Assembly: GCA_036480375.1 (NCBI GenBank)
Contig: JAZGGI010000034.1
Span: forward strand, 62,001-126,000
Source of the DNA: Candidatus Zixiibacteriota bacterium
GTDB taxonomy: Bacteria; Zixibacteria; MSB-5A5; GN15; JAAZOE01
Reading direction: 5' to 3'
DNA length: 64,000 nt
Every line of letters begins with the position of its first letter. Positions within the stretch are counted from its first letter, which is position 1. The translations under genes were made by a program, and so were the position numbers. Of this stretch, positions 30,297-61,821 are shown in pieces. The notes under the pieces are model-generated. The model had not been told where the DNA came from, made no database searches, and worked only from the letters and a program-made list of their open reading frames with translations.

Positions 30297-30318
30297 AATG
30301 GAGGTGGGGGGAATCGAA
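30297..30318 (-). repeat. Left direct repeat (attL-like), tmRNA/tRNA 3' end
   Basis: A 22-bp copy of the repeat containing TGGAGGTGGGGGGAATCG. Read on the minus strand it is T-loop, T-stem and acceptor strand CACCTCC plus discriminator A. Its T-stem is not completed by the following island sequence. Confidence 0.7.
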
Positions 30319-35385: not shown

Positions 35386-36120
35386 TTAGAGGGATTCAAC
35401 GTGGTCATACCATGATATATGCTCACCCAACAAATTCCTTAGCTTCCATGACAGTGTTTTTTCAGACGAATCGATAGTGTATTCCATTTCTTCAAGTATC
35501 GATCCAAACGCAAATTCATTACCAATTTCTCTGCTGTATATTATCCTGATAGACCTAAAACCCTCTTTTAGGGCTTTCCACCATCTCCAATTTATAGAAC
35601 ACAACCTCGTAATATAGCCTATGTCAATCCCTTCATTTGTATCGTCAATTATTTTGTGTTCGTTTAGAAGGGCACAGATATCTACAACATCTTTAAGCTT
35701 CATTTCATGTATCTGGATTTTTGACAAAAATAGGTCACTTACAGAGATTGTTGGGTAATCAATAGTGATTCTATTCCTCAGATCAAGATTTTGACAGAAG
35801 GACAATTTATCGAAGATCAAATCGACATTTACAGAATTGTCTTGTATCACAAACGATCTTCTTCTCCCCCCACTAATCATTCTGAATCTCGTATCTTCTT
35901 GAAATCCAATCGAACATAATACGCGACATGCCTTTTCCGATTGAGTTGATAAACCCAATAAATCTATATCGTGTATTGTCCTATTGAAACGATCAAAATA
36001 TTCCTTGCTTCCGGGACAATGAAGGAATACAGCTAAACCTCCAATGGCTCTTATGGTTAGACCGTTGTTTTCAGCCTCTTTCATTATGCGGTTAAACATC
36101 TGGATTAAATGAGAATTCAC
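35386..36120 (-). CDS. Nucleotidyltransferase-fold protein
   Basis: A 244-aa protein with the Pol-β-type nucleotidyltransferase core near its N-terminus: IRAIGGLAVFLH followed by R-T-I-H-D-I-D-L-L, giving the GG and hDhD motifs, and a third acidic residue in NVDLIFD. This resembles AbiEii/MNT-type and other orphan nucleotidyltransferases. The C-terminal half is helical. It is the last gene of a minus-strand series with a metallophosphoesterase (24 bases upstream), a permease and a kinase. Substrate unknown. An AMP- or UMP-transfer antitoxin or toxin role is possible. The start is the first ATG, near TTTAAGTCACTC, without a strong ribosome site. Confidence 0.65.
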   Translation of the reverse strand: MNSHLIQMFNRIMKEAENNGLTIRAIGGLAVFLHCPGSKEYFDRFNRTIHDIDLLGLSTQSEKACRVLCSIGFQEDTRFRMISGGRRRSFVIQDNSVNVDLIFDKLSFCQNLDLRNRITIDYPTISVSDLFLSKIQIHEMKLKDVVDICALLNEHKIIDDTNEGIDIGYITRLCSINWRWWKALKEGFRSIRIIYSREIGNEFAFGSILEEMEYTIDSSEKTLSWKLRNLLGEHISWYDHVESL

Positions 36121-36144
36121 GAGTGACTTAAATCTCCATCAGGG

Positions 36145-37107
36145 CTATGTGGTAAGCCATTGATAACCTTCCAAATTGCCATCTTGAATATGAATAAGGA
36201 AACCTGTCAGTGTCCCCGAGGAATAATCCGAACCAGGATTAAAGCAAACCGTTCGGCCTATTTTATCAATCCCAGCCGATTCATGAACGTGACCATGCAA
36301 CCCAATCATAGGCTGATATTTCTCAAGAGCCTTGCGGACCGCCGTGCTGCCCACATGATCACGTCTAACGCTTCTATCAAAAAGTAATTTGTCAGAACTC
36401 GGGACTTCGGCTATATCCAATTTTGAGGTATTTGGTGGGCAGTGTATATTGCATATTGAATTCTTTGGATTTTTTACTTTTTGGAACAGATTATCCAGCA
36501 ATATTTGTAGATCCTCCTCGCGTTTCTCTCGCGGTGTCTTGAATGGAGTAATGTTTGAATCCCCAACTGTCAAAACATCATACTTATTGACGGTAATAAC
36601 ACTATTATACGCCCACATGATATCATCATCAATATGGCTTGCTATCGCGGCGTCAATTTCCTTGGGATCGTCATTTCCTGGGCTAAATACTATTTTTACT
36701 TTTTTTGTGTCAACCTTATCTCGTGCGAGTTTAAGCCAAAACTTCAACCTTTCGATGGCCAAATTATTTCGAGTAGTACAGCATAATTCATGGTCATTTT
36801 GAACCTTCTCATTTAGATCCTTATCACATCTGAAAATATATCTACCGTTATTTTCAAAGTTCCGGCTCAGTTGGTCAACCTCAGCAGGATTGACATCATT
36901 TTCTACTAATCCCCTTTCATCCCAGACTTCAATATAAGTACCCCCCGTTACTATTCGGGTAAGTGATTTTCCACAGAGATCCCCACTTATAATAATGAGA
37001 TCAACCTCGTGGAATTTGGGAACATTCAATATACGCCTATAAGCAAGGGTTGAGCCATGAATATCGCAGGCAAAGAATAGTCGAAATCTTCCCATTGTTA
37101 CACTCAA
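36145..37107 (-). CDS. Calcineurin-like metallophosphoesterase
   Basis: A 320-aa hydrolase with all five family blocks: FFACDIHGS (D-x-H), IIISGDL (GD), FSPGNDD (the GNH/D block), CNIHCPPN, and GLHGHVHES. These residues bind two metal ions and cleave phosphoesters or phosphodiesters. A charged insertion of about 90 residues separates blocks two and three. The protein is cytosolic. It sits 15 bases after the permease and 24 bases before the nucleotidyltransferase, so it is probably co-transcribed. A possible pairing is a nucleotidyltransferase adding a group that the phosphoesterase removes; this is inference from neighbourhood only. Confidence 0.85.
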   Translation of the reverse strand: MSVTMGRFRLFFACDIHGSTLAYRRILNVPKFHEVDLIIISGDLCGKSLTRIVTGGTYIEVWDERGLVENDVNPAEVDQLSRNFENNGRYIFRCDKDLNEKVQNDHELCCTTRNNLAIERLKFWLKLARDKVDTKKVKIVFSPGNDDPKEIDAAIASHIDDDIMWAYNSVITVNKYDVLTVGDSNITPFKTPREKREEDLQILLDNLFQKVKNPKNSICNIHCPPNTSKLDIAEVPSSDKLLFDRSVRRDHVGSTAVRKALEKYQPMIGLHGHVHESAGIDKIGRTVCFNPGSDYSSGTLTGFLIHIQDGNLEGYQWLTT

Positions 37108-37122
37108 TCGCGATTAGTTAGT

Positions 37123-38691
37123 TTATGCTGGTGGAATTTCGGAGTAAACTTTATCAATTATTATCCCTTTTTTTCGATTCTTTAGATATTGCACATAATA
37201 AATGAGAAGTCCCATGGCCATAATTACTGCTGTTGTAATCGAAACGGCAAGGGTCATTTGACGAATCGTAAAGAAAAGGACAAACCAGCCTATACCAAAC
37301 GTAAGAACGCCCGATACGCTATATATCGGAACGCCGAACATCCTTGTCTTTATTGGACAACTCTCATAAAGCTCCGGTTTACGATACGGCAAAAGCATTG
37401 CACTAATCCCATAAAGCCAAAAGACAAAAAACGCTGCAAAGAGTAACGTACCCAGTACGACCTCCACATTCATGACATTAAAAAGAACGCCTAAAATGGC
37501 TATGATTATTGTCACATGGGTACTCCATGTGGGAGCACCGGCTTTATTCACATTAGCCATCTTCTCAGGAATCGCTCTATCCATAGCCAGTGCGAAAATC
37601 AGCCTTGATGGAGAGAAGAAATAAGGAATTATCGTACTTAAAAGCCAAAAGGAAATTCCTAGCGCAAGCAATATCCCAAACCAATGTGAAGGCATCAGAG
37701 AAGCGAGGTAGAACGGTATTGAGGGGGCAATTGGAGTCATTATTTCTCCCAACAATTGGCTATGATTTTGATATAAAAAATCATATGCTCCCAAAAATCC
37801 CTCCATCGGTATAAGTATTGAATAGGCTACCAGTATGTAGAATAAACCAAGAGCCACCCATGCAATCATATATCCGGTGAATACCTTCCTTCCCACCTGC
37901 CCAATTTCTCCACTGGCATAACTTATCACTTCAATTCCGCCAAAAGACCACAATACGACAAGCAGAGCGCTAATGGTTTGACTCCACGAAAATCCGGGGG
38001 AATTCCACCCATTCTGTGCGGCCAGATTGAGAATATTATTGAATGTACCCTGGCCCCAAGTATTATCGAAAAGGCGCTCGGCTGAAGACGATGATGTGAA
38101 GAGAAAATATACGACTGTGATGAGTGTACAGCCCAAAGTAATGACAAACAATAGCCTCATCATATTTCTGAACAAATGGACTCCTGCTAAGATTGTCGCC
38201 CAAATTATTATCAGGAATGCTATACTTATCACCAACTGCCATGTTGTAGTCTGCATTACCGATCCAATACTCTTGAGAAAGGTAGAAGCCGAAACTTCCC
38301 CAAAATTGGCAATAATTCCTCCGATTACTCCAACGGCAACATATGAAATTACACCTGCCGCAAGACTATAGGCGACATAGAGTAGGAAACCCGCAAGATA
38401 GCCCAAAGCAGGGTCAATAACTCTGCTAATTAATACATATAAACTACCTGATCTCGGGATCATAACAGAGCTGCATGCCGCGAGGAATATTATCGGCAGA
38501 AATATTATCATCCCTATAAGAAAACTGAGCGGTATGCTGGCACCTGGATACGTAGAGGCGGTGGAAACAGAATAATAGATTATACCTGAACCAGCAGGTG
38601 CCGAAATAGCAAGCAATGATATATCAGTCCAAGAAAAGGTTTTTACTAAGCCGCTAGTGCCTTTTGCGAAGATTTGATCTGTCTTATTCAT
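37123..38691 (-). CDS. APC-superfamily amino acid permease
   Basis: A 522-aa transporter from the ATG at 38691, chosen because GAGGAAGGA directly precedes it (an in-frame ATG at 38715 is weaker). About twelve membrane segments are present. The first helix has the unwound APC motif around APAGSGIIYYSVSTAS, and helix six shows SFGGIEVISYASGEIGQ, typical of APC and glutamate/GABA antiporter-like proteins. The substrate is probably an amino acid or amine. A transporter between a kinase and a phosphoesterase inside an island is unusual and suggests uptake or export linked to the upstream biosynthetic cluster. Confidence 0.87.
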   Translation of the reverse strand: MNKTDQIFAKGTSGLVKTFSWTDISLLAISAPAGSGIIYYSVSTASTYPGASIPLSFLIGMIIFLPIIFLAACSSVMIPRSGSLYVLISRVIDPALGYLAGFLLYVAYSLAAGVISYVAVGVIGGIIANFGEVSASTFLKSIGSVMQTTTWQLVISIAFLIIIWATILAGVHLFRNMMRLLFVITLGCTLITVVYFLFTSSSSAERLFDNTWGQGTFNNILNLAAQNGWNSPGFSWSQTISALLVVLWSFGGIEVISYASGEIGQVGRKVFTGYMIAWVALGLFYILVAYSILIPMEGFLGAYDFLYQNHSQLLGEIMTPIAPSIPFYLASLMPSHWFGILLALGISFWLLSTIIPYFFSPSRLIFALAMDRAIPEKMANVNKAGAPTWSTHVTIIIAILGVLFNVMNVEVVLGTLLFAAFFVFWLYGISAMLLPYRKPELYESCPIKTRMFGVPIYSVSGVLTFGIGWFVLFFTIRQMTLAVSITTAVIMAMGLLIYYVQYLKNRKKGIIIDKVYSEIPPA

Positions 38692-38741
38692 TCCTTCCTC
38701 ACGTTCTAAAGCCAAGAGCTTTGGGATTTTTTTATCTTTAA

Positions 38742-41237
38742 TTATTTACATGTTTTGAATTCTTTTAGCATTTTGATTGCATTTTCATACCTATCCAAGG
38801 GATTAAAGGACAGTGCCTTCCTTATGAGTTCAACAAGTTTTACATGTTTATTGCCTAGTTCTTTTTGAAGTTGATTACATGAGTTATTCAATATTTTGGA
38901 TACTTCATTAGCCTTACCGACATTAAAACCTTTTGAACTTGACAGTTTCTTCATTATTTTTTCATAATTGTTTATTTTTCCAGAGTTATTTACTGGGTGC
39001 CTCAGCATGATCAATTCATAAAAAATCAAGCCAAGAGAAAACACATCGCTGCGCTGACTTATTGGTATAGCAGTTATGTAAAACTCGGGTGCTTTGTAAT
39101 ATGGATCTCTAACCTTATCGTCAAGAGTATTTATGGGTTGGGCCAAAAATCTTGCTAATCCGTAGTCGACTACTATGGGACGCTCACTTTCGTCTTCAAT
39201 CATAATGTTGGCAGGTTTTAAATCCGAATGAATTAATACGCTATTTTTCTTTTTGCGAGAATGTAGATACTGCACGCCTTTAAGAATCTCCTCCATATAA
39301 ACGAGCATCTTTGATAGCTTTAGCTTAGTCACTTTCGCCTTTATATCAGCAATCACTTTCTTTAGGTCTAAGCCCTTAACGTAATCCATAACTACATAAT
39401 ACCTTGAGTTGTACGGAAATATTTCTATATATTTTATAACATTCTCATTTTCAAATTCATTAAAGGGAATTTCCAATTCCATGAGCGATGGTACTTCGTC
39501 TTGTACTTTGATAGCCACCTTCCTTATTTCTTTTTTCTCTTCGTAATTAGCCAAATACAGGTTCCCTGACTTCCCTCCGCCCAGCCTGGATTCTATATTA
39601 TATTTGCCTATTGCCTCCTTAATCATACTTAACTTTTTGATATTCACGATACATTCGAGAAATAATAAAAATAGGTTACGCATCTTTTCTTCATTTATTG
39701 GCGGATTTTTCTCGAATCTAAGTGCAAATTCCCTACAAATGTCATCTCTCCAAGACTTTCCTAACTCAGCAATTCTCAAGTTCCCGGAAAAACAGACTAT
39801 TACAAAGCCGCTTTTATTAATGTCAATAAACCAGTGTTTCTTTGCCCCACGCTGCACGAGCTTAATTCCGGAATTCATGTATTTCTTGCATTCGTTAATT
39901 CTCACAAAACGACGAGAAAACTCACTTTTAATAACACTAATGAACTTATCTGTTATATCACCAGCACCATTCGTGAAATTCACAAAATTATCTTCGATTT
40001 GCGAGGCTAACTTCTTGGCCAGTTCTGAAATACGTTTATCCCCATCAGGTTCTGCCACAACTTCATGGCTAATACTATCATCAATTGTATATCCAACCAT
40101 CATAATATGAATCTGAAATAAATCTCTCTCTAGCCTTAAAATATCACGCTGAGCCCTGGTTTTTAGGCATACGGGCTTTACTTCCGCATTTGATATTCTC
40201 AGTAACCTTTTATCACCTAGAAGTTGTAAATATTCACTAATCACCCTTCCGCTTATAGATTCGAACTTTGATTTATGGACATTTGCAGAAATAGTCAATT
40301 TGATTTCTTTTTTGGGATACGGTACCGAAGAAATGGAGCGCAAATCTGTACCCGCCTCATGGGATAATATTTTCGTCAACTCATTTATGTTGGTGGAATC
40401 ATCCATTGTTATCTCAAAATCACATATTCGTTCGTTGGGTGGTTTAATGATCACAGACAGTGCATTACGCTCACTATCAAGTCGTACTGTGACATATATT
40501 CGAACTGAGTTATCAAAGGTGATATGAGATTGCTTGAAAATTACTTCTAATAGTCCTTTCAGAATGGTGATATATGTTTTTTCGTTTTTGCCGCGGCATA
40601 TTTTCACCTCGTCATCATTTATATGGACTTCTTTCTCTAATGAATTACTATCTCTAGGTTTATAATAATTTTCTTTCCAACATTGTTCGATCGAAAGTAA
40701 GGGACCCTTATAATGTAATTTCTTGTTCTTGCCTATATATGTTTTTTCAAAGCACTCAGCAATCTTGAGTAACTTCAGCTCTTTTGCCCGCTTCCACAAT
40801 ATTCTATTTATATTGGAATAATCGCATGGTATCTGTCTCGCTAATTTCCGGATTTGATTTTCTATTCCCTGCATAATCCCAATAGCTGAAGCTTCTGAAT
40901 ATTCAGGATTGGCGCAATCAATACCGTTGATTGTGCTCATATTCAAATAGAGTGTCTCTTCATCCTTTATTAATTTAATTAGATCGTGAGCGGCTTCAGT
41001 CTTATTAGGCATTTTGAATCGAAAATTGTACAATGTTGATAATTCCTTCCTCAGGAAGGGTGACAGCACTAGTTCATATTTATTCGCCTCTACCTTAACG
41101 TTTTCATGGTAAAGGAAATTCGCAAAAAAATTGTTCTTCTCCAATCCTATCGCGTCACCCATGTAGGATGGCATAGGCAACAGCCAGTCTTTGCAAGATT
41201 TATCCCAATAAATAACGCTCGAATGGTATAACTTCAT
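38742..41237 (-). CDS. Protein kinase with large unrecognised N-terminal region
   Basis: An 831-aa protein whose last 285 residues are a complete Hanks-type Ser/Thr kinase: glycine loop GGGKSG (553-558), VAIK with K577, HSDLKPANI with H670, D672 and N677, DYG with D691 (instead of DFG), and APE (716-718). The first 545 residues have no recognisable domain; they are soluble, lysine-rich and contain an ordered α/β stretch. There is no membrane helix and no PASTA domain, so it is not a PknB-type wall sensor. The gene lies 192 bases after the radical SAM gene and 26-50 bases before the permease. It may regulate the neighbouring module or be a defence kinase. Confidence 0.83.
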   Translation of the reverse strand: MKLYHSSVIYWDKSCKDWLLPMPSYMGDAIGLEKNNFFANFLYHENVKVEANKYELVLSPFLRKELSTLYNFRFKMPNKTEAAHDLIKLIKDEETLYLNMSTINGIDCANPEYSEASAIGIMQGIENQIRKLARQIPCDYSNINRILWKRAKELKLLKIAECFEKTYIGKNKKLHYKGPLLSIEQCWKENYYKPRDSNSLEKEVHINDDEVKICRGKNEKTYITILKGLLEVIFKQSHITFDNSVRIYVTVRLDSERNALSVIIKPPNERICDFEITMDDSTNINELTKILSHEAGTDLRSISSVPYPKKEIKLTISANVHKSKFESISGRVISEYLQLLGDKRLLRISNAEVKPVCLKTRAQRDILRLERDLFQIHIMMVGYTIDDSISHEVVAEPDGDKRISELAKKLASQIEDNFVNFTNGAGDITDKFISVIKSEFSRRFVRINECKKYMNSGIKLVQRGAKKHWFIDINKSGFVIVCFSGNLRIAELGKSWRDDICREFALRFEKNPPINEEKMRNLFLLFLECIVNIKKLSMIKEAIGKYNIESRLGGGKSGNLYLANYEEKKEIRKVAIKVQDEVPSLMELEIPFNEFENENVIKYIEIFPYNSRYYVVMDYVKGLDLKKVIADIKAKVTKLKLSKMLVYMEEILKGVQYLHSRKKKNSVLIHSDLKPANIMIEDESERPIVVDYGLARFLAQPINTLDDKVRDPYYKAPEFYITAIPISQRSDVFSLGLIFYELIMLRHPVNNSGKINNYEKIMKKLSSSKGFNVGKANEVSKILNNSCNQLQKELGNKHVKLVELIRKALSFNPLDRYENAIKMLKEFKTCK

Positions 41238-41429
41238 TCAAAGTCTCCCCAGCTTGCCCTTGCACAGACACAACTCTATTTATAGGCCATTATCGTCGAC
41301 AGTGAATATATAACAATCATTTATAAGATTAATGTTCTCGACCATCAGCTATTTGAACCTCCATAGCCCATGAGTTTTCCGATTCAGGATATGGCCTATT
41401 AACTATTGCCCAATAGTCATTTACGCCAG

Positions 41430-43331
41430 CTATTGAATTTCATACCAGATACGCCGTTTACCGGAGGGAAAACTCTCAGCCACCATACTCTCTATTCTGA
41501 TTGTTGAGCCTTCCCCTGTCTTAATTGATTTAATCATAAAATCTTTTCTAGGCCCTGTCAAGGCATTTTTTATACTGGCTGGGAAGCCCTCTCCGATTTT
41601 AGAGCGATGTAAAGCGGAGATGCTAAGTTGGATTGATTTATATTTTCCGATTAGTATCTTCAAACCTCCGGTGTCGATGTTCCCCGCCCAAGGATAACTC
41701 AATGCCAGATCAGTGGTTGAGTCTTGCTGTAAATTTATTACGGAATCATCCCAATATTTTTCCATTGGTGTATTGATCTCGGGATGATAATACCCATATG
41801 AAATTGAGCCAATATAGGCCAGATTCTTTTCAACAAAATCTACAGTCTGTAATGCATCGGGCAAGGTCTCAGTCGGCAACCCATACATAATCAAAATCCG
41901 ATTATGTATGCCAGCTTCAGCGGCAAACCTGATGATCTTTTGTGTTGCATCAAGGCTGTAACTTTTGTTTATAGTCTTTAGAATTCTGTTGCATCCGGAT
42001 TCCAAACCCCAATTGATACATATACATCCGCTCTTTGCCATTTGCTCAATAAGTTTTTTACTAAAGGCTTTTTCGAATTTGGCAAAAATTATCCATTCTA
42101 TATTAAGATTTGCGACCAGTAGGGCTTTACTAAGCTTGTCCGCATAGTTTGGCGAAATGATAGCATCTGAGAAATGGATTGTTTTCGCACCAAATGAATC
42201 AGTCAATACTCTTATGTCTTTAATTACTTTCTCGATATTTCTCACCTTATATTTGGGCTCAAGTAACGGATAGGAACAAAAAGTACATTTCCCCCAATAA
42301 CAACCCCTTGAAGCCTGAATAGGGAATGTTGCTACCGTATCATATTTGTTTAGATCTTTCTGATTAAATATTGGAGTTGGCAAATTATCCATATTTAATT
42401 CACAATGTTTGACACATGTTGCCGGCGAGCCATCTCTATTTAAAACGTGATTCGGGACTTCACTAATAGGTAGTTCCCCTCCCAATGCCAAAACCAACCT
42501 GTAAAGGGATTCTTCTCCCTCGAATACTATTAGGCTGTCAATAAACGGGAACATTCCAAGTTTTGGGGCTAGCTTTTCTCTCACGTGACTGCACCAAGGT
42601 CCTCCGATTACTATGTGAATCTGAGGGATTCTTTCTTTTATTAAATTAGCCAACGTAAAAGCTGGGACTACCTGGTTGGCGGCAATAATCGATATTCCAA
42701 GAACTGAAGGTTCTCGACTTATGACGGTGGAAAGGATATTTTCTTCAAAGTAACTATAGTATGGATTCGCGGAAGCATCGGTAGAGGCGGCATGTAGATC
42801 ATCAGATGAAAACGTACAATCACTAAGAGAAATATCAGAATATAGAAGGTCATGATAACCCAGCTGGCTGCTATCTATTTCCGCCTCCCGGGGAGAAAGG
42901 CTGCAGTATTCTCTATTGAATATACTAAAATTAATTAGTAGTTTGCGATAGAAGGGCTTTGATATTATCTCATGCTCTACTTCATGCTTAAATTGTTGTT
43001 TTCTTAAACCGACAACAGCGGCCATTCTTTTGGCCAATTCAATATCTTTACCCTCGACAAATTTCCCTTTGTTCAGAATTTTCCATCTTTTCTGAAGATT
43101 ATGATAAATGATGTTAATCTGTTCGGATTTATAGAAGTGATTCCAAAATTCGACATTGGCGTCTATTTGACTAACCTCAATCCCTCTCTCAGACAAATAG
43201 GCAGCCAGCATTGCCGTGCTTAGATAAGGTGCCTCCGGAAGCCAAACCGGAGGAAAAACCAGCAAGACATTGAAATTATGACTTATCTTCATCATCTGCA
43301 TATTCCAACTTGATATGACAGATTCCGTCAA
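41430..43331 (-). CDS. Cobalamin-binding-type radical SAM enzyme (RiPP-maturase-like)
   Basis: A 633-aa enzyme. The N-terminal region opens VLLVFPPVWLPEAPYLSTAMLAAYLSERG and continues to IVIGGPWCSHVREKL, the Rossmann-like B12-binding domain of class B radical SAM proteins. The radical SAM core holds GCYWGKCTFC with C344, C349 and C352, a C-x4-C-x2-C spacing like that of RiPP-associated maturases. Further core strands follow (IHFSDAIISPNYADKLSK, NWGLESGCNRILKTINK, RILIMYGLPTET). The first ATG at 43331 overlaps the upstream gene by 56 bases; ATGs at 43301 and 43292 are alternatives. Such enzymes methylate or rearrange unactivated carbons. It is the fifth gene of the small-protein/RRE/methyltransferase cluster. 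Confidence 0.85.
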   Translation of the reverse strand: MTESVISSWNMQMMKISHNFNVLLVFPPVWLPEAPYLSTAMLAAYLSERGIEVSQIDANVEFWNHFYKSEQINIIYHNLQKRWKILNKGKFVEGKDIELAKRMAAVVGLRKQQFKHEVEHEIISKPFYRKLLINFSIFNREYCSLSPREAEIDSSQLGYHDLLYSDISLSDCTFSSDDLHAASTDASANPYYSYFEENILSTVISREPSVLGISIIAANQVVPAFTLANLIKERIPQIHIVIGGPWCSHVREKLAPKLGMFPFIDSLIVFEGEESLYRLVLALGGELPISEVPNHVLNRDGSPATCVKHCELNMDNLPTPIFNQKDLNKYDTVATFPIQASRGCYWGKCTFCSYPLLEPKYKVRNIEKVIKDIRVLTDSFGAKTIHFSDAIISPNYADKLSKALLVANLNIEWIIFAKFEKAFSKKLIEQMAKSGCICINWGLESGCNRILKTINKSYSLDATQKIIRFAAEAGIHNRILIMYGLPTETLPDALQTVDFVEKNLAYIGSISYGYYHPEINTPMEKYWDDSVINLQQDSTTDLALSYPWAGNIDTGGLKILIGKYKSIQLSISALHRSKIGEGFPASIKNALTGPRKDFMIKSIKTGEGSTIRIESMVAESFPSGKRRIWYEIQ

Positions 43332-43629
43332 TTATAGCCTTTTCTACGTTGTAATGACGGCCGTCTTCTTTTTCGAACAAACCCTGAATTATCCCCATAT
43401 GACCATCACAAATTAAAGTACATCCATTCCGCGCATAAGAGCAATTAATACAGCTGATATCTATTGCTTTAGATGTCATCTCAGAAATTCTATGAGAAGT
43501 AAGTTCGCCAAATATTTTATCCAGACTTAATTGTGCATTTAGTGGAAGCCAGATTGTATCAGTCTTATCTAAAAGTAGCTTCCGCTTAGCAAACTCTGCC
43601 CAAAAATCTTTTGATGATAGTGCCTTCAT
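43276..43629 (-). CDS. Unrecognised Cys-rich small protein of the radical SAM cluster
   Basis: A 117-aa soluble protein with a cysteine cluster SCINCSYARNGCTLICDGH (C-x2-C-x6-C-x3-C) and a fifth cysteine in GICHIKLEY. The pattern could bind Zn or an iron-sulfur cluster, and faintly recalls V4R-type small-molecule domains, but I cannot assign a family. Its start overlaps the methyltransferase stop by four bases and its stop overlaps the radical SAM frame, so it is tightly coupled to both. An accessory or partner of the radical SAM enzyme is inferred. Confidence 0.72.
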   Translation of the reverse strand: MKALSSKDFWAEFAKRKLLLDKTDTIWLPLNAQLSLDKIFGELTSHRISEMTSKAIDISCINCSYARNGCTLICDGHMGIIQGLFEKEDGRHYNVEKAIIDGICHIKLEYADDEDKS

Positions 43630-44528
43630 TTTTTTTGCGCGATCATTATAGTCTGAGAGCCCAAGTATTTAAACGGGTATAACCCGGATAGAAAATTATT
43701 CAATAGCGAAGCTAAAATATTTTCCGCAGGCAAGGGTTTTACTCCTATAACCTTAATTATCCGAAACTTGTGAGACACAAGGGTCTTAATAATTTGTCGA
43801 GTAGAAAAGCACATACGCATTGAAAATAAGCCAAAAGTTCGTTGATGAAAAATGGGAATTGTTGGTCTTTCTTTTGAAAACATTCTTTTTCCAACCTCGA
43901 TTACACTCATGGATGGATACGAAATTATAACAACTCCATTTCTCCTAAGCACTCGTGATATTTCCCCGACTGCTCGGTTGGGATCAGGTACATGTTCTAA
44001 AACGAAGCTGCACAATATTGATCCGAATACTTCATTTTTAAACGGTAGATCCCCTGCGTCGCCATTCATTTGCAGACCAATAATTTCTTCATCTGATGGA
44101 ATTTGTTGTGAGTTTTTAATGCATAGATCTAAGGATAAAATCTCTGATTTGCCATTAAAGTAATTTCCAGGGCCGGATCCCAAATCCAAGATAGGGTCTT
44201 GGATAAGGAATTTATTCACTAGAGGCGATAGGTATTTTCCGAATATTGCATAGGTATCAATAAAAGGGCTGTTGCTTCCAAACAAGCGTGAAAAGTATAA
44301 ATTTAGGTGATTTACCGCCTTCCTCTCCCCAGAAGACCCAGCCCAGCATTGCTGCATAGGATCAATTATGAGAGGTTGGCTATCAACCACCTGTAAATAT
44401 GCCCCGATATCTGATGGTCTTAGCGCACACTTGAATATACCATTATTGTCAAAGACTAAGCCATAGCCCCAAAAATCTTTATCATAAATAATGTGAATAG
44501 AATGCTTGCCGATATTGGAATCAGTCAT
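43626..44528 (-). CDS. Class I SAM-dependent methyltransferase
   Basis: A 300-aa protein. After a 100-residue N-terminal region come motif I (PILDLGSGPGNYF), the acidic strand end SLDL, DAGDLPFKNEVFGSILCSFVLEHVPDPNRAVGEISRVLRRNGVVIISYPS (motifs II to III in pieces), typical of Methyltransf_11 proteins. The C-terminal part is longer than average and basic. It lies five bases after the RRE-like gene and overlaps the Cys-rich gene by four bases, so it belongs to the same operon. Substrate unknown; peptide or intermediate O/N-methylation is plausible in this setting. Confidence 0.85.
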   Translation of the reverse strand: MTDSNIGKHSIHIIYDKDFWGYGLVFDNNGIFKCALRPSDIGAYLQVVDSQPLIIDPMQQCWAGSSGERKAVNHLNLYFSRLFGSNSPFIDTYAIFGKYLSPLVNKFLIQDPILDLGSGPGNYFNGKSEILSLDLCIKNSQQIPSDEEIIGLQMNGDAGDLPFKNEVFGSILCSFVLEHVPDPNRAVGEISRVLRRNGVVIISYPSMSVIEVGKRMFSKERPTIPIFHQRTFGLFSMRMCFSTRQIIKTLVSHKFRIIKVIGVKPLPAENILASLLNNFLSGLYPFKYLGSQTIMIAQKK

Positions 44529-44533
44529 AATCC

Positions 44534-44794
44534 CTAAGAAAACTCAAGAAATCCTTTATGATGACATTCTGAAATCATTTTCAAGATGTCATCTCTGAAT
44601 TGAATTGGATCTTTAGGTTTGTATTTATCTTGCAGAAAATCAAAAATTTCAGAGATTTTGCGTCCACCAGCGCAAAGAAAGATTATGTCAATAGATAAAA
44701 GATCATCCAATGCAAGAAACAGATCACGGTTCTTAGAATATAGAGAAACCGCTACGTCCGGATTGAGATATGGAGTCCTATCGTCATTCATCAT
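44534..44794 (-). CDS. PqqD/RRE-like small protein
   Basis: An 86-aa protein. Its second half, IIFLCAGGRKISEIFDFLQD followed by FRDDILKMISECHHKGFLEF, matches the winged-helix pattern of PqqD-type RiPP recognition elements (hxLhxG-x-(K/R)-(T/K)-hxEI, then D-h-x-x-h-h-x-x-h-x-x-x-G-h-L). The N-terminal P-x-hxPDVAV also fits. RRE proteins bind the leader of a precursor peptide and bring it to the modifying enzymes. AGGAAGG directly precedes the ATG, and it overlaps the 79-aa ORF by 11 bases. The call is by pattern; a divergent winged helix with another role is possible. Confidence 0.62.
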   Translation of the reverse strand: MMNDDRTPYLNPDVAVSLYSKNRDLFLALDDLLSIDIIFLCAGGRKISEIFDFLQDKYKPKDPIQFRDDILKMISECHHKGFLEFS

Positions 44795-45023
44795 CCTTCC
44801 TGCTACCTTTTCCTATTTTTGTAGAAGAAGAGCTTATGCTTGTCTCAATCTCATCAAATGGGAATGGTCCTCTAATAAACCTATAAACGGGACCGCCGCC
44901 TTTGGCTACGATAAGATCATCGTAGTTGTTATACCCCTTACGATTAGTTCTTCCACCGAAAATACGATAACTTGGTCTGACCTGCCCACTATTCTCCTGG
45001 GATCTATGCACATTTTTTGCCAT
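44784..45023 (-). CDS. 79-aa small protein, candidate RiPP precursor
   Basis: The first gene of the radical SAM cluster. It encodes a 79-aa basic, Gly/Ser/Tyr-rich peptide: a polar N-terminal half (MAKNVHRSQENSGQVRPSY), a middle segment with GGRTN and AKGGGPVYRF, the hydrophobic FIRGPFPFDEIETSI, and a Ser/Lys-rich tail. An AGGGG site stands six bases before the ATG. Position (before an RRE-like gene), size and lack of known fold fit a precursor with leader and core, but no established core motif is seen. It could also be a small structural partner. A TATACT -10-like box lies about 46 bases upstream. Confidence 0.5.
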   Translation of the reverse strand: MAKNVHRSQENSGQVRPSYRIFGGRTNRKGYNNYDDLIVAKGGGPVYRFIRGPFPFDEIETSISSSSTKIGKGSRKDDE

Positions 45024-45200
45024 CGTACACCCCTATAATTTATTTACGAAATTCTATTTTCTTTGGGCAGTATAATTGACTATGCATAAGCAAGCTACTA
45101 AATAAAATATATGCTTCAACCGCCCATTGTCAAGCGATAACTGGGCCAAAGGTGATCTTCTACGTTCCTTGGAACTGATTTCTATTTCCATATATCGGCA

Positions 45201-45242
45201 GACACAATTTCAAACTTTATTGACACAATTTCGGATTTTATT
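45201..45242. repeat. Two tandem 21-bp operator-like repeats
   Basis: GACACAATTTC starts both units, which agree at 18 of 21 positions and lie exactly two helical turns apart. An inverted partial copy (GCAATTGTC) follows at 45245. About 180 bases upstream of the RiPP-like operon start; a regulator site is inferred. Confidence 0.5.
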
Positions 45243-45497
45243 ATGCAATTGTCAAGGACGTATGTAAACAAAATAACTCAATGACGTAATCCCTTTTTAT
45301 TCAATAAATTAGATGCATATAATCTCTTTGCAAAATTGTCTATCTACCTCGCTAATTAAGCATTAGATGACATTCTCCCACAATGTATCCTCGTTGATGA
45401 ATTTGGCTTTTATTTCCATCATTTTTGGTCCATACGATCATTGAACAGGCCTCATAGCTCTTTAGGCTATCGGGTGCCGGTTCCAAAAGCAATTAAA

Positions 45498-45529
45498 CCT
45501 CAGCCAATCCTGACAAAAATGGCTGGAGG
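45498..45529. other. Inverted repeat downstream of hsdR
   Basis: CCTCAGCCA pairs with TGGCTGGAGG apart from one bulged base, with a 13-base loop. No T-tract follows on either strand, so it is not a classical terminator. Confidence 0.35.
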
Positions 45530-45667
45530 ACTAACTTAGAATGTGGTACAATAACTGGGGGCAGGTCAACTTTTCTAAGCTCTCCGCGGTACTATTCAGT
45601 CATTATTTCATGCCGTCTCCTGGTTGGCGCGAACATCCATTCGCCGAAAACGCTATATTATTTAGCC

Positions 45668-48600
45668 TCATGCTGCCGCATACACACTTCGCCCAGCTCC
45701 ATAGTAGGCGTCATAGACGTGCTGGAATATGGCTGTAGTTTTTTGATCAAATAGCTCTGGAGTGTAAACACTCGGCAATCCCTCGTCTAGAAGTTTCTCA
45801 ATGGTCACCCGCACTTCTGCGCGGGCCTGCTGGCGTTTACGCCAATCGAGTACCAGCTTGCCTTCCTTGAGAGTGATCAGCAGCTCCTGGGCCGTGGCTT
45901 TGACCTTTTCCCGGTCCGCCTCGCTCATTTCAATGTTGGGCTTGGTCAGGAGATCGAAAAGCACCAACTCCTCTTCAGTAAGCTGTTCGCCCACGGCCCG
46001 GAGTTCTTCTTTATCCAGACTCTTGGCAAAGGCCACCAGTTGTTGGAAGAACTCCTCGGCATTGAGGCTGCCCGCGTTGTAGGCGTCAATCATCGCCTGG
46101 AAACGCTCCAGATAATCAATACGCGTGCGGTTGAGTCGAACCATTACCATCAGCTTTATCGATATCTTTCCTTTGAGCCTCTCGTTTAAAGTACGTTTAC
46201 GGCTTGTCTTGAATCTCTCGGCCAGTGCCTCAAAGTCTATGTTACTGAGATCAATTAAATGGTCATCGCTTTCGGGTGGACCTGTCTCGCGAATGACATA
46301 GCCTTCGGTAGCGATGGAACGATCGAGCAATCCCTCCACCTGCTGCATAACTTTTGAGATGTCCGCCACCGGGGTCAGCGCGCGGATTTTCTCGGTGATG
46401 ACATGTATGGGTGTCACCTCGGCGGCAAATTCCCGTGCGGCGGGATCAGGTAGCACCGCCTTATACAGCCTCCTCACCGTGTTGGCCAGGTCGAGAAAGC
46501 GGCGCTTAATCTCCTCGGAAGCTACCAGCGCTTCCACTGCATCATCGAGCAGGCCGATGCGGACGAATCCCTCGGCATTCCGGATGGCCGTAAGGTCCAC
46601 CTCCTGTCCCAAACACAGGGCTTGGGTTTCCTCCAGTGCCTGCCGCAATGCCGCTACCAGAGCCTTCTTATCCTCCACCGGCTTATTACCACCGCCACCC
46701 GCACCGTAAATAGCCAGCGCCCGCTCCAGATTGCGGAAGACACCAGTGTAGTCCACGATCAGACCGTTTACCTTGTCGGCATAAACGCGGTTGGCCCGAG
46801 CGATGGTTTGCATCAGCGTATGGTTGCGCATTGGCTTATCAAGGTAAAGCGTCGAGCATATTGGCACATCAAAACCGGTCATCCACATGGCGCATACGAA
46901 AACCAGTCGGAAAGGATCGTCCGGGTTCTTGAACTTGGTTTCCAGGTCCTCTTCGACCATGCGTTTGCGATGTGGGCGGATGTCCAAACCTTTTTCGGCC
47001 ATGTCCGCGATTTCGTTCTGCCCCTGAGATACCACGACCGCCATATCGGTTTCTGCCATATAGGCGATTAGGTTTTCAATCTCCCGCCGGTTGTCTTCGC
47101 TCGCCTCGGTCAGTTCCGTCTGTAACGCTTCGATTTTTGCCGCCCAGTGTTTTTTCACCTTGTCAAACATGCGGATAGCAGTGGCCTTGTCGATACAGAT
47201 TATCATGGCCTTGCCATGAATGCCCCGCCCTGTGAAATGCCCAACCAAGTCTTCTGCAACCGCCTCCAAACGTTCATCGCGGGTAATTAGATGGTACTCG
47301 CGGGCAAACTCCCGCTCCAGCTTTTTCTCCTTCGACTCGTCAAGTTCGGCCTCTTCCAGCAGGCGCTCCATGTCCTCGTTAAGGTCCTCATTGACCAATT
47401 GCAGTTCGGGGATACGGTTCTCGTAATAAAGCGGCACTGTCGAGCCGTCGGCCACAGACTGCTGGAAATCATACACGCTGATATAATCGCCGAAGACTTG
47501 ACGGGTTTTTTCCTCGCCCACAATCAGTGGCGTTCCGGTGAAGGCCAGGAAGGCGGCATTAGGCAAAGCCGTGCGCATGTTCAGAGCCAGCATGTCATAT
47601 TGGCTGCGATGAGCCTCATCGGTAACTACAATAATGTCATCACGATTGGAAGCCTCCTCCTGCTCCCGAAACTTGTGAATCAGGGTGAAGATATAGCGGT
47701 GATCCTCGCCAAGCAATTGTCGGAGATGGGAACAGCTTTCTGCCTGGGCGCGGCCTTCCGTCACTACCCCGGACGAGACGAAGTTTTTGTATATCTGTCC
47801 GTCCAGCTCTTTACGGTCTGTGACGATCACGAAGGTCCAGTTACCCGGAATCTTTCGCAACACCTTCTGTGCAAAGAAAATCATCGAAACGCTTTTGCCA
47901 CTACCCTGGGTATGCCAGAAAACCCCCAGTTTACCTTCCCGCTGGCGGATTTCGGTCAAAGCCTCCAGCGCATTGTTGACCCCCAAATATTGATGATTTT
48001 TAGCCGTCAACTTGATCAATCCGCCCGAGGCTTCCTGAAACAGTGTGAAGTTTTCCACTAAATCCAACAACCGCGATGGCTTACAAATACCACGTAGCAT
48101 GGTCTCAAGTGACACGCGGCCGGCCTCGTCCTCGCTTCCCACCTTCTTCCACTCGTTGAAATGTTCCCATCCGGCCGTAACGCTGCCTACTCGACTTTGG
48201 CTTCCGTTGGAAAGGATAATTAGGGCATTAGGCCAAAAAAGCTGAGGTATGGTGTCTTTGTAGTCGCGCAGATTGCCAGCAAAGGCTGTCTCCAGACGAC
48301 GGTGAACGGCCTTGAGTTCGATCAGGATCAGCGGCAGGCCGTTGACAAAACCCACCAAGTCGGCGCGGCGGGTGTGCATCTCGCCGGTAACCCAGAACTG
48401 GGAGCAGAGCAGAAAGTCGTTGTTCTCCGGGTTATCGAAGTCAATTAAACGCAGCACCTCCACTGTCTCGCCGCCCCCTTCAGGGTCGGGAATGGGAACG
48501 CGCACGCCATCTTTAAGCAAATGGTAAATCTCGCGGTTTGCGGCTGCCATACTCAGGCGCGAGCGGTCGCGGGTCAGTTCTTCAATAGCTTGGCCAATCG

Positions 48601-48808
48601 CCTCAGGCGACGCTTCGGGATTGAGCCTTTGCAGGGCCGGGAGGAGCCCGGAGATGAGGATGACTTCAGCCCGCGTCTCGCGGCCCATTGTGCTCGCTCC
48701 AGAGTCGAACTCGTGATACGCATTGACCGTCTCCCATCCCAACTTCGCCAGCAATTCAATGGCTGGTTGCTCGACTAAGGCGTCTTCGGTATAACCAGTG
48801 GGCGTCAA
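45668..48808 (-). CDS. hsdR: Type I restriction enzyme, HsdR subunit
   Basis: A 1046-aa motor/nuclease subunit. The N-terminal PD-(D/E)xK nuclease is visible as RADLVGFVNGLPLILIELK with D150, E164 and K166. The SF2 translocase has Walker A QGSGKS (301-306), DEAH (397-400), AFTGTP (about 422-427) and motif VI-like TIARANRV. The C-terminus is helical, as needed for binding HsdM. The length fits HsdR. The ATG overlaps the DUF262 gene's stop by four bases. Its base composition is clearly GC-richer than the flanking island genes, a sign of separate transfer. It is the last gene of the operon. Confidence 0.95.
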   Translation of the reverse strand: MTPTGYTEDALVEQPAIELLAKLGWETVNAYHEFDSGASTMGRETRAEVILISGLLPALQRLNPEASPEAIGQAIEELTRDRSRLSMAAANREIYHLLKDGVRVPIPDPEGGGETVEVLRLIDFDNPENNDFLLCSQFWVTGEMHTRRADLVGFVNGLPLILIELKAVHRRLETAFAGNLRDYKDTIPQLFWPNALIILSNGSQSRVGSVTAGWEHFNEWKKVGSEDEAGRVSLETMLRGICKPSRLLDLVENFTLFQEASGGLIKLTAKNHQYLGVNNALEALTEIRQREGKLGVFWHTQGSGKSVSMIFFAQKVLRKIPGNWTFVIVTDRKELDGQIYKNFVSSGVVTEGRAQAESCSHLRQLLGEDHRYIFTLIHKFREQEEASNRDDIIVVTDEAHRSQYDMLALNMRTALPNAAFLAFTGTPLIVGEEKTRQVFGDYISVYDFQQSVADGSTVPLYYENRIPELQLVNEDLNEDMERLLEEAELDESKEKKLEREFAREYHLITRDERLEAVAEDLVGHFTGRGIHGKAMIICIDKATAIRMFDKVKKHWAAKIEALQTELTEASEDNRREIENLIAYMAETDMAVVVSQGQNEIADMAEKGLDIRPHRKRMVEEDLETKFKNPDDPFRLVFVCAMWMTGFDVPICSTLYLDKPMRNHTLMQTIARANRVYADKVNGLIVDYTGVFRNLERALAIYGAGGGGNKPVEDKKALVAALRQALEETQALCLGQEVDLTAIRNAEGFVRIGLLDDAVEALVASEEIKRRFLDLANTVRRLYKAVLPDPAAREFAAEVTPIHVITEKIRALTPVADISKVMQQVEGLLDRSIATEGYVIRETGPPESDDHLIDLSNIDFEALAERFKTSRKRTLNERLKGKISIKLMVMVRLNRTRIDYLERFQAMIDAYNAGSLNAEEFFQQLVAFAKSLDKEELRAVGEQLTEEELVLFDLLTKPNIEMSEADREKVKATAQELLITLKEGKLVLDWRKRQQARAEVRVTIEKLLDEGLPSVYTPELFDQKTTAIFQHVYDAYYGAGRSVYAAA

Positions 48809-50919
48809 TGTTCGCTCCCATTCCCCATTTGACGGTCAAAGGACTGGCGCACCAATGCTATAATATATGGTAGCTCCTCAACCGAGGTGAAACCGACTTC
48901 CACATCACCATTACCCCAGCGACTGACATTGGTAACATCCCGACAGAGGCCGCGAGGATCGTTAATATCAGCAAAATGCATATTTAGCGCCAACCTCAAT
49001 CGCTTTGCCTGTGGTATTACATCGACAAAGTTGGTTTCGGCCTTGTAGGCCACATAGAGTTTTAGAAACTCCTCGCTTACTGCTGGATCGAGTGCCAAAA
49101 CCTCTTTACGAAATGCCGCAAAAAGTTCTTGTCCCAAGCCACTGAGGAGATGAGGATGATCATCGATTGAATAGCCTGTTGTTGATTCTACCTTGGGCCG
49201 ATAGGCGGTCAGGATATCGGCATCCAGTTTTGGGGCACGCCATACTTCTACTACCGAATCCTTCAATCGTTGGGCGCGCGCTTTGATCGTTTCTTCATTC
49301 CAATTCTCAAGCTGACCAAGATCCTGGTTTAGTTTAAGCGGGCTTTCCTTAAAGCCACCCTGCATATTGCGTTTCTCGCCAAAAGTCCGGTCACCATATT
49401 CCGAATTGTATCCGGTCAGAGTCAGGTTGCCGAGGGTATGGAGCCAGGTATCTCGGATACGTTCCCATTCCGTGCCCAGAGCTTCTTTCCACTCTTTGGA
49501 AAGCTTTTCATTCTGAGGCAGGATATGCTCAATGGTATATTCGGCCACCTCAACGCGCTCCTTACGGCCATAGTTTTCCAGCCGCCTCAGCCAGTAACTG
49601 CAACTCCTGAAATTGTAGAGATTACGCACCGGCAATTCCCGTTTGAACTCCTCATCATTCGGGAAACGCCGATAGGAAGGAAGCAGAAGCAAATGGGCCT
49701 GAACGCTTTCCAGATAGCGGTCTTTTTTCAGAGCCTTTGTAAAGGTAGCGAAGGTCTTGTTGAGCGAATTAGTGGGGATGGCGCAGACGGCCCGGCGGAA
49801 GACATAAGATTCAATGAATCGCACCGTCGACACAAAATCATTCTTCGATAATATGTCCTTCGTATAATCGTGATAAAGTTCCAATAGGAAGGGATACGCC
49901 ACATCCACCTTGAGCTCACGCAGGTCGCGAAAGGCGAGCTTGAGGTTTTGATCAGTCTCGGCTCCCAAAGCCATGGCACAAAAATAACGCGCAAAGTCTC
50001 GAATGTCGAAAACTAATGACTCCACCCCTGCCTCCGCTATAATAGGGGAGCGGGCATGAGCCTTAAAGGCATCGTATACGGCGTCCAATTTTGGAATATC
50101 GCCGGTCTTAACCGTCAAATAATGTCGCATGAAGCTGTCGAAGTGGGTGCCGTAGGCCTCCTGCCCGAAGTCCAGTTCCATAGGCCGCCAGAAATTCTCA
50201 TAAAGGCGAATCTGCAAGTCCGGCTCCAGGCCCATCAAAATGAAGTTGCGGATTAAATCAGCCTGGGTTAGTTCCCGCCCGGTGGAGTTCATACTTTCAA
50301 AGATTAATTGCGAATTGTCCTGATCCCGGTTTAGCGCAATGTCCACAACCACCAGCTTGGCAATCCCATTGCATAGTGCGGTAAGATCACCCGCACATCC
50401 AGCAATCCATGTTTCAAAGAGTTTATAGTTCTCCGCGATACGCCGAGAATAATCTTTGGGTTGTTCGTTTCCGGTTACAACGGCAAGAAGCGAATCTTTG
50501 TCAGTCTGGGATAGAATTAGTTTATAATGACGCTCGTCTTTTTCTTCCGGGTTGATGAGATAGTAATTGCGTAACTTCCGGGGTGAGAAGCCCTCAACCG
50601 GTTCCCGGTCTTCATCCGGCAGATTATCCAGAGCCTTCGCCACTGCGGCTATCAGCAGCGCCATCGTGGTCAGGCGTTGTTGGCCATCAATAACCAGAAG
50701 CGGCGACTGGTACGTCACCTGATACAGTCCCTTTTCTATATAGACGATGGAGCCGACAAAATGAGCAGACACCTTTTCGTTACTGCCGGTGCGCAGGATA
50801 TCGTCCCAGAGCTGCCTGCACTCACGCTCGGTCCAAGAATATGTGCGCTGGTAAATGGGAATAACAAACTGAGGTGACTTCTTTATAAAGTCTAAAAATC
50901 TTGCTTCGGTAGCTTTCAT
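48805..50919 (-). CDS. DUF262/DUF1524 (GmrSD-like) protein inside the hsd operon
   Basis: A 704-aa protein from the ATG at 50919, which overlaps the hsdS stop as ATGA; the longer frame to 51066 lies inside hsdS and is not used. The DUF262 half (FVIPIYQRTYSWTERECRQLWDDI and LLVIDGQQRLTTMALLIAA) is a ParB-like domain that hydrolyses or senses nucleotides in GmrS and BrxU. The C-terminal half has the DUF1524 HNH-type nuclease pattern (YTIEHILPQN, LGNLTLTGYN and a later R-N motif). Such proteins restrict DNA with modified bases. Its stop overlaps hsdR by four bases, so it is translated within the type I system. It may widen restriction to modified phage DNA. Confidence 0.9.
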   Translation of the reverse strand: MKATEARFLDFIKKSPQFVIPIYQRTYSWTERECRQLWDDILRTGSNEKVSAHFVGSIVYIEKGLYQVTYQSPLLVIDGQQRLTTMALLIAAVAKALDNLPDEDREPVEGFSPRKLRNYYLINPEEKDERHYKLILSQTDKDSLLAVVTGNEQPKDYSRRIAENYKLFETWIAGCAGDLTALCNGIAKLVVVDIALNRDQDNSQLIFESMNSTGRELTQADLIRNFILMGLEPDLQIRLYENFWRPMELDFGQEAYGTHFDSFMRHYLTVKTGDIPKLDAVYDAFKAHARSPIIAEAGVESLVFDIRDFARYFCAMALGAETDQNLKLAFRDLRELKVDVAYPFLLELYHDYTKDILSKNDFVSTVRFIESYVFRRAVCAIPTNSLNKTFATFTKALKKDRYLESVQAHLLLLPSYRRFPNDEEFKRELPVRNLYNFRSCSYWLRRLENYGRKERVEVAEYTIEHILPQNEKLSKEWKEALGTEWERIRDTWLHTLGNLTLTGYNSEYGDRTFGEKRNMQGGFKESPLKLNQDLGQLENWNEETIKARAQRLKDSVVEVWRAPKLDADILTAYRPKVESTTGYSIDDHPHLLSGLGQELFAAFRKEVLALDPAVSEEFLKLYVAYKAETNFVDVIPQAKRLRLALNMHFADINDPRGLCRDVTNVSRWGNGDVEVGFTSVEELPYIIALVRQSFDRQMGNGSEH

Positions 50920-53776: not shown

Positions 53777-54055
53777 CCTTCCTCCCAAGGGCCGGATAAT
53801 ATACCTGCCAAGATTCGTCGAGTCCTTTCCGGACATGGCTCACCTTTGAAGAGGGTTGAACTCTCTCTGCTTTTCAAGCAAAAATGGGCAAGGCTGCCTC
53901 ATAATTGTGTCCATCTTTTCCCAAATCACGGAGCCATATCTTAAATTATTTGTAAATACTTTAACTATATAAGATAACCCACGCAATTGAAGATGTCAAC
54001 TCTGAGAACGCCCGAAAGCTCAATTGAATCTTCTGAATACAGGGGTCAGCCGGAA

Positions 54056-59991: not shown

Positions 59992-61572
59992 ATGAAAGCT
60001 GTTTTATATGCAAGAGTATCATCAGAAAAACAGGCAGAAAAGGATCTGTCAATTTCCGCCCAGCTCAAAGCTATGCGTAAATATGCTACCAAGCATGAAT
60101 ATACAATTGTTAAAGAGTTCGTTGATAAGGCCGAGAGTGCCCGAACCGCTGACCGGCCGGCCTTTCAGGAAATGATATCATTTGCGCGAGCGAAGACGAA
60201 ACCGTTTGATGTTGTACTGGTTTGGAAATTATCTCGTTTCGCCCGCAATCGTGAAGATTCGATTATATACAAATCTCTTCTTCGGAAACGCGGCATTCAG
60301 GTAATCTCCATCAACGAAAATCTTGATCAAACTCCTGCGGGAATACTGCTTGAAGGTATGATAGAAGTAATCGATGAATTCTACTCGATCAATTTATCTC
60401 AAGACACTAAGCGAGGCTTGAGGGAAAACTCAATGAGAGGATTCTGCAACGGCGGTGCTCCCCCATACGGATATCGACATAAGCGTGTGATAGACGGCAA
60501 TGCCACCCGGCTTACTCTTGAGATTGATCCGGACTACGCCTCCATTGTAAAGAAAATCTACTGCATGAGTTTAGAGGGGAACGGTGCAAAGGAAATCGCC
60601 AAAACCTTAAATGGTGAGGGGATAAGAACTGCCAGGGGTAATCTCTGGGATAGTTACGGAATCTTGCGTATTCTCAAGAACCCCATGTACATTGGTGTAT
60701 ACATCTATGCCCGACATCGGCAACTTAAACCTGGCGAAGAACGGTTTGAAATCAAGGGTAAACATCCTGCCCTTATAAAAGAGGACGATTTCAATACAAT
60801 TCAGAAGCTGATCGAGAAACGATCTTTTAAAGGCAGTCATCCTCGGAGAACGGCATCAAATTACCTTCTCAGTGGGTTATTATATTGCGGCAAATGTGGG
60901 AAGGCTTTGCAGGGAGGATCAGCAAAGTCCGGCCAATATCAATACTACTCCTGTTATAATTACCTGCGTCGCGGGAAATCAGTCTGCGATTTAAAAATGA
61001 TTGGCACTGAGACGCTGGAACGGGCAATTATAGACAAACTTAAGGAGCGCGTTCTAACTCCAGAACACCTTGCTGAATTACTTGAATTAGTTAATGCGGA
61101 AATCGAGTGTACACAGCAGACGCAAAAATCTGAAATTGATACGCTCAATAAGCAGGTTTCCCACAAGCAGTCAAAGCTTGACAGACTTTATGACGCTTTG
61201 GAATCTGGAAACCTCGATCTCAATGATCTATCACCGAGAATCAAGAAACTAAAGGCCGAAATAGATCAGCTTCAGGGCAAGATTGGCAGCATAAAATTCG
61301 GCTCTGCTGCCAGTGCCCAGATCAGGTCCATATCTAGGGCCGAATTAAGGCGATATACTGATGATCTCTACTCGTTATTGAATGAGGGTGAGTTTTTTGA
61401 GCGACGTGAATTTTTACGGTCTTTTATTAAGCGAATCAATATTAATTATCCGCAAGTTGAAGTTATGTACACAATTCCAATAATGAAAAAACCTCCGAAA
61501 AAATCGGAGGTTCTGTCTATTGTGGCTTATGGCGGGGCGGACGAGACTCGAACTCGGGATTCTCTGATTTGA
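59992..61572 (+). CDS. Large serine recombinase (site-specific integrase)
   Basis: A 526-aa recombinase. The resolvase domain starts AVLYARVSSEKQAEKDLSI with the catalytic serine at 10 or 11, and contains WKLSRFARNREDSI (R-x-x-R). The recombinase domain (APPYGYRHKRV, then NGEGIRTARGNLWDSYGILRILKNP) is followed by a zinc ribbon (LYCGKCGKALQGG, SCYNYL, SVCDL) and a coiled coil (IDTLNKQVSHKQSKLDRLYDALE). The last 30 codons are unusual: they cross a terminator hairpin and end GGADETRTRDSLI, which is translation through the antisense of a tRNA 3' end. It is the likely enzyme for island integration and excision. It lies 227 bases from the right direct repeat. Confidence 0.92.
   Translation: MKAVLYARVSSEKQAEKDLSISAQLKAMRKYATKHEYTIVKEFVDKAESARTADRPAFQEMISFARAKTKPFDVVLVWKLSRFARNREDSIIYKSLLRKRGIQVISINENLDQTPAGILLEGMIEVIDEFYSINLSQDTKRGLRENSMRGFCNGGAPPYGYRHKRVIDGNATRLTLEIDPDYASIVKKIYCMSLEGNGAKEIAKTLNGEGIRTARGNLWDSYGILRILKNPMYIGVYIYARHRQLKPGEERFEIKGKHPALIKEDDFNTIQKLIEKRSFKGSHPRRTASNYLLSGLLYCGKCGKALQGGSAKSGQYQYYSCYNYLRRGKSVCDLKMIGTETLERAIIDKLKERVLTPEHLAELLELVNAEIECTQQTQKSEIDTLNKQVSHKQSKLDRLYDALESGNLDLNDLSPRIKKLKAEIDQLQGKIGSIKFGSAASAQIRSISRAELRRYTDDLYSLLNEGEFFERREFLRSFIKRININYPQVEVMYTIPIMKKPPKKSEVLSIVAYGGADETRTRDSLI
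61486..61512 (-). terminator. Minus-strand terminator inside the recombinase 3' end
   Basis: A 9-bp perfect stem (AACCTCCGA / TCGGAGGTT, 5-base loop) is followed on the minus strand by six T. It lies about 18 bases beyond the tRNA 3' end at 61530 and looks like that RNA gene's own terminator. Confidence 0.75.
61530..61560 (-). other. tRNA 3'-end remnant overlapping the recombinase stop
   Basis: Read on the minus strand: a T-loop GTTCGAGTC with partial T-stem, acceptor strand CCGCCCC, discriminator G and CCA. The 5' half (GGGGCGG expected 75-90 bases upstream) is absent; the adjacent sequence only mimics a D-arm. A fragment, not a working gene. Confidence 0.55.
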
Positions 61573-61799: not shown

Positions 61800-61821
61800 A
61801 ATGGAGGTGGGGGGAATCGAA
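61800..61821 (-). repeat. Right direct repeat; also left end of a second element
   Basis: A second 22-bp perfect copy of the repeat at 30297. Here the following bases (CCCCCGA) complete the T-stem, so the tmRNA/tRNA-like 3' end is longer: GGGGG-TTCGATT-CCCCC, CACCTCC and A on the minus strand. The expected 5' acceptor would be GGGGGTG, giving the G3-U70 pair of tmRNA; no such 5' end lies within the next 350 bases. Confidence 0.7.

Follow-up and report, generated by a model that had tools for sequence, protein, structure and literature searches.

A probable orphan RiPP-type cluster with a discrete recognition element and a B12 radical SAM enzyme on a putative integrative element of a Candidatus Zixiibacteriota bacterium

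Do five tightly packed genes in a Candidatus Zixiibacteriota bacterium modify a peptide, and is that peptide encoded by the first of them? The question is raised by a 64,000-nucleotide stretch of contig JAZGGI010000034.1 (assembly GCA_036480375.1, contig positions 62,001 to 126,000), here called the window, to which all coordinates refer. A first-pass annotation had seen in it a candidate cluster for a ribosomally synthesised and post-translationally modified peptide (RiPP). In our reading, which we hold with somewhat better than even confidence, the five genes form a RiPP-type modification operon in which a RiPP recognition element (RRE) presents a 79-amino acid (aa) peptide to a B12-dependent radical S-adenosylmethionine (SAM) enzyme. 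The locus is thus a probable orphan RiPP-type cluster, and what is new here is the orphan combination of an RRE and a B12 radical SAM enzyme with an unrecognised cysteine-rich partner.

The operon itself is real. The listing of open reading frames (ORFs) with their translations places five co-directional genes on the minus strand from 45023 to 41430, encoding proteins of 79, 86, 300, 117 and 633 aa. The first two overlap by 11 bp, a 5-bp gap follows, the third and fourth overlap by 4 bp, and the fourth and fifth by ∼15–56 bp, so that the gene count, the lengths, and the three overlaps and one gap of the first-pass annotation are all borne out. The last overlap is given as a range because the start of the 633-aa gene is ambiguous: a TTG start lies at 43331, and in-frame ATGs ∼30–40 bases further in are equally possible. 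The first ORF (44784..45023, minus strand), a small protein and candidate precursor peptide, has a Shine-Dalgarno-like AGGGG ∼8 nt before its ATG. About 80 bases upstream of it lies a promoter-like TTGACA-16-TATATT (45106..45133, minus strand) that matches 11 of the 12 consensus positions; this site is one of three tied for best within 34900–45800, and the region as a whole shows no excess of promoter-like matches over chance.

The second gene (44534..44794, minus strand) is central to the argument. Its 86-aa product has PqqD as its top family in both Pfam (E = 0.0015) and NCBIfam (E = 0.0059, 16.5 bits). A fold model made with AlphaFold2 from the single sequence, with a mean predicted local distance difference test score (pLDDT) of 71, which is moderate confidence, was compared with 350,542 PDB chains. 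The first four places went to a lasso B1 protein with bound leader (6jx3), PqqD (5sxy) and two TbiB1 chains with leader (5v1u), all with weak E-values between 0.25 and 1.5. As the four RREs that head the fold list agree with the PqqD result from sequence, the RRE call was accepted, and we take the 86-aa protein to be a discrete, PqqD-like RRE, as the earlier description of an RRE-like winged helix had implied. Neither Pfam and NCBIfam nor the fold search returned a regulator family. On the PqqD family of pyrroloquinoline quinone (PQQ) biosynthesis (TIGR03859) the protein scores 16.5 bits against a curated cutoff of 46, and pqq genes are absent from the operon.

Two of the remaining genes encode enzymes whose families had been named correctly. 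The 633-aa protein (41430..43331, minus strand) carries a B12-binding domain (PF02310, E = 2.8e-8) and a Radical_SAM domain (PF04055, E = 1.7e-15), both above cutoff. The motif CYWGKCTFC reported for it is present, and only the spacing needs correction, since it reads CX4CX2C instead of the canonical CX3CX2C; it is found in most relatives of the enzyme and is typical of the enzyme family. The best NCBIfam match is to the RiPP C-methyltransferases of TIGR03975 (130 bits, E = 1e-37), with PhpK and ApyD also among the best families, but 130 bits is far below the curated TIGR03975 cutoff of 281.85. The 300-aa protein (43626..44528, minus strand) is a class I SAM methyltransferase, with Methyltransf_11 above cutoff (E = 2.8e-13) over residues 114–202; its N-terminal ∼100 aa have no family assignment.

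The 117-aa protein (43276..43629, minus strand) has five cysteines, arranged as C-x2-C-x6-C-x3-C plus one late Cys. Searches in Pfam and NCBIfam gave no confident family for it, and no Pfam match to V4R or DUF6144. The C-terminal half does resemble the cysteine domains of V4R/DUF6144 proteins in its Cys and Gly spacing, and against a 12-sequence DUF6144 profile the protein ranked 29th of 5001 sequences, the others all being shuffles; the likeness is suggestive and serves as a lead only. Other candidates were rejected: an origin from ATC hydrolase, for which profile and hhalign comparisons gave nothing, and a Potato inhibitor II match (E = 0.0035, 21 residues), which was judged an artefact of Cys composition. 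A single-sequence structure model was discarded as too poor (pLDDT 44). No copy of the protein was found in 131 other genomes of the phylum. In viral and plasmid collections the Cys-rich, RRE, methyltransferase and peptide proteins had no relatives except generic methyltransferases.

The points in favour of the RiPP reading are the tight operon, preceded by a ribosome site and a promoter-like sequence, an RRE supported by two profile libraries and a fold search, the RiPP C-methyltransferases, PhpK and ApyD as best families of the radical SAM enzyme, and the reported association of RiPP clusters with defence systems. The B12 radical SAM enzyme and the class I methyltransferase are the candidate modifying enzymes. 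The substrate, reactions and role that we infer from this would run as follows. A segment of a peptide made on the ribosome, most probably the 79-aa one, would be bound by the 86-aa RRE and handed to the B12-dependent radical SAM enzyme. With cobalamin and a 5'-deoxyadenosyl radical, this enzyme would modify an unactivated carbon, with C-methylation most likely and cross-linking possible. The class I methyltransferase may add an ordinary methyl group as a second methylation, and the Cys-rich protein could be a partner that supplies a metal, an Fe-S cluster or a redox function. What the pathway makes would probably benefit the mobile island in which the operon seems to lie, either as a bacteriocin-like compound or within the cell.

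Several observations weigh against this reading. The PqqD matches of the 86-aa protein are below the curated Pfam and NCBIfam cutoffs, and the moderate-confidence model leaves the three N-terminal strands unresolved. No exporter or leader peptidase was recognised in the cluster, only an APC-type permease downstream. Five relatives of the radical SAM enzyme from mixed contexts score 82–136 bits on TIGR03975, and those without a RiPP setting score equally high, so a match of this kind is general to the broader family. Since both it and the motif are common to chromosomal relatives that have neither an RRE nor a Cys-protein homologue beside them, the enzyme alone is no evidence for a RiPP. Its closest relatives (29–33% identity) come from Nitrospirota, Nitrospinota, planctomycete-type genomes, Melainabacteria and others. 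Those of the first three groups are chromosomal genes, and many stand in tandem with further radical SAM genes; beside the relatives examined (some loci with only ∼1.5 kb of flanks) there are no homologues of the RRE, the Cys-rich protein or the peptide. A closer orthologue was found neither in 60 genome relatives (E ≤ 1e-30) nor in four phylum-level samples, where the best match has ∼33% identity; two of the phylum-level samples gave no matches at strict thresholds. No orthologous cluster turned up in the sampled searches either, and a second example of the operon is thus missing; these searches covered samples and were not exhaustive, which leaves absence elsewhere unproven. In the enzyme tree, the window protein forms a long single branch, weakly placed and outside any informative clade.

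One locus met in this survey is of separate note. In the Sinorhizobium meliloti plasmid pAK76 (locus L009, 5971–8305), a related 694-aa B12 radical SAM gene is followed by a 72-aa ORF ending in GGQNC and, further on, by a 2-oxoglutarate (2OG)-Fe(II) oxygenase and a cupin gene; this is a candidate for another RiPP-like cluster.

The chromosomal relatives favour a different account, in which the operon makes or modifies a small molecule or a lipid. The PqqD-like protein would then serve as a scaffold or as a winged helix that binds DNA, and the first ORF would be there incidentally. This account also draws on the fact that searches for RREs are known to pick up winged-helix regulators falsely (PMC12710340). 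However, the family and structure matches of the 86-aa protein are to PqqD and to RREs, with no regulator family among them, and a discrete PqqD-like protein next to a radical SAM enzyme is a typical arrangement for peptide modification (PMC7470986). We regard the making or modification of a small molecule or lipid as unlikely.

If the operon does modify a peptide, the question becomes which one. The 79-aa peptide is basic, rich in Gly, Ser and Arg, free of Cys and has a net charge of +5. Its ORF has the same codon score as the neighbouring genes, yet one spurious ORF scores equally well, and the score is therefore no proof of translation; the ORF is probably translated. Among the loci, plasmids and viral contigs searched no homologue of the peptide was found, and it has no clear boundary between leader and core, both of which add to the objections above. 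Motifs of the form W/Y/LxxP/L/I are bound by the PqqD/FusE/McjB group of RREs (PMC12710340), and the peptide contains two candidate recognition stretches, YDDL at 34 and YRFI at 47. In a shuffle test about half of the shuffled 79-aa peptides also held at least one such YxxL/I motif, a further point on the negative side, and YDDL/YRFI was rejected as a discriminating motif because it does no better than chance. The proposal of the first-pass annotation that this peptide is the substrate accordingly stays a proposal, there being neither a homologue anywhere searched nor a discriminating motif; its status as a candidate precursor derives from its position and the presence of the RRE.

The same observations can be taken to mean that the operon is of RiPP type and that the 79-aa ORF has an accessory or regulatory part, the RRE's cargo being a different peptide or a segment within one of the cluster proteins. 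The lack of a conserved leader and of homologues, the coding score matched by a spurious ORF, and an Arg-, Gly- and Ser-rich composition with its charge of +5, unlike that of a clear leader-core peptide, all speak for this. On the other hand, the ORF comes first, is preceded by a good ribosome site and runs into the RRE gene, which is a usual layout for a precursor, and the operon showed no further short ORF without assignment on that strand. An accessory role for the first ORF seems improbable to us, though worth keeping in view, and we retain the 79-aa peptide as the favoured substrate.

The surroundings of the operon, which are those of a mobile defence island, had been missed in the first-pass annotation. 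An exact 22-nt direct repeat, for which no occurrence is expected by chance, is found at 30297..30318 and again at 61800..61821 (both plus strand). It matches the 3' end of transfer-messenger RNA (tmRNA), the right copy being a tmRNA 3' fragment (a partial RF00023 match that stays under the gathering score, with E = 1.5e-5 when 601 bases were searched). Adjoining the right copy is a large serine recombinase (59992..61572, plus strand) with Resolvase, Recombinase and zinc ribbon domains, likely the integrase. Because the exact end repeats match the tmRNA 3' end and a recombinase adjoins one of them, the 31.5-kb stretch between them is most likely an integrative element, with the operon as its AT-rich cargo. 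The AT-rich part extends from 35 to 45 kb, with a GC content of 36–41% as against 41–48% to the left and 49–54% to the right. On one side of it, inside the element, is an operon of the cyclic oligonucleotide-based antiphage signalling system (CBASS; 30571–32126) with a CD-NTase cyclase and a Cap15 effector with two transmembrane segments; on the other is a type I restriction-modification system (45668–53836) in which hsdR and hsdS flank a gene for a GmrSD-type protein; this region has a higher GC content than the remainder of the element. Next to CBASS, a 368-aa protein (32153–33259) shows only a weak match to the candidate defence family PDC-M14A. A gene for a tetratricopeptide repeat (TPR) protein contains, at 33896–34405, five tandem copies of a 102-nt unit.

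Downstream of the operon, on the same strand, lies a gene for an 831-aa protein (38742..41237) with a C-terminal Ser/Thr kinase (Pkinase, E = 1.1e-36) that matches defence-kinase profiles. The terminator scan found no terminator in the 192-bp gap between operon and kinase gene, and the two may be co-transcribed. Further along the minus strand of the AT-rich segment are an APC-type amino acid permease (37123–38715), a metallophosphoesterase (36145–37107) and a nucleotidyltransferase-like protein (35386–36120), whose membership in the pathway is uncertain. One could propose that the operon, perhaps with the kinase and these three genes, is itself an anti-phage defence system, placed as it is between CBASS and type I restriction and not separated from a defence-type kinase by any terminator found. 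Yet the defence-kinase matches are limited to the kinase domain (the ∼530-aa N-terminal region has no relatives on plasmids), none of the small genes has a match in PADLOC, and the enzyme resembles PDC-M51A weakly and just over the shared core. Bacteriocins and metabolic genes are also among the cargo of such islands, and a defence system in its own right appears very improbable indeed.

RiPP clusters, radical SAM types included, have been reported to lie together with defence systems and mobile elements (PMC12715929), so the setting is compatible with a bacteriocin-like or defence role for the product of a RiPP-type operon. A bolder version, which we consider a long shot, would make the locus a new RRE-dependent peptide class, built on a singleton CX4CX2C B12 radical SAM lineage with a V4R-like Cys partner, whose product serves the island against phages or competitors, possibly with the kinase. 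B12 radical SAM enzymes catalyse carbon modifications that rank among the hardest known, and a cluster in which such an enzyme is joined by a separate RRE and a Cys-rich partner of no recognised family offers a lead towards new chemistry. The place of the operon in a mobile defence island also bears on why RiPP clusters often travel with anti-phage systems.

How, then, does the locus compare with known systems? PqqD and the discrete lasso B1 RREs (TbiB1, 6jx3) are like the 86-aa protein in size and in the PqqD helical region, with 15–29% identity over 52–54 aligned columns. Lasso systems differ, as the operon is without a lasso cyclase, B2 peptidase or PQQ genes, and neither a lasso cyclase nor a leader peptidase was found among the operon and its neighbours. 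In ApyD/biphenomycin-type clusters a B12 radical SAM enzyme likewise works in a RiPP setting, and the ApyD pathway includes a methyltransferase. Here the difference is in the enzyme, which matches ApyD with 105 bits against a cutoff of 750, and in the MNIO (DUF692) gene, none of which was seen in the operon. The rSAM_ocin_1 enzymes of TIGR03975 share the layout of B12-binding and radical SAM domains, the match spanning the shared core only. Closest of all is the large family of B12 radical SAM proteins with CYWGKCTFC from Nitrospirota, Nitrospinota and planctomycete-type genomes, which at 29–33% identity have a similar length and the same CX4CX2C spacing.

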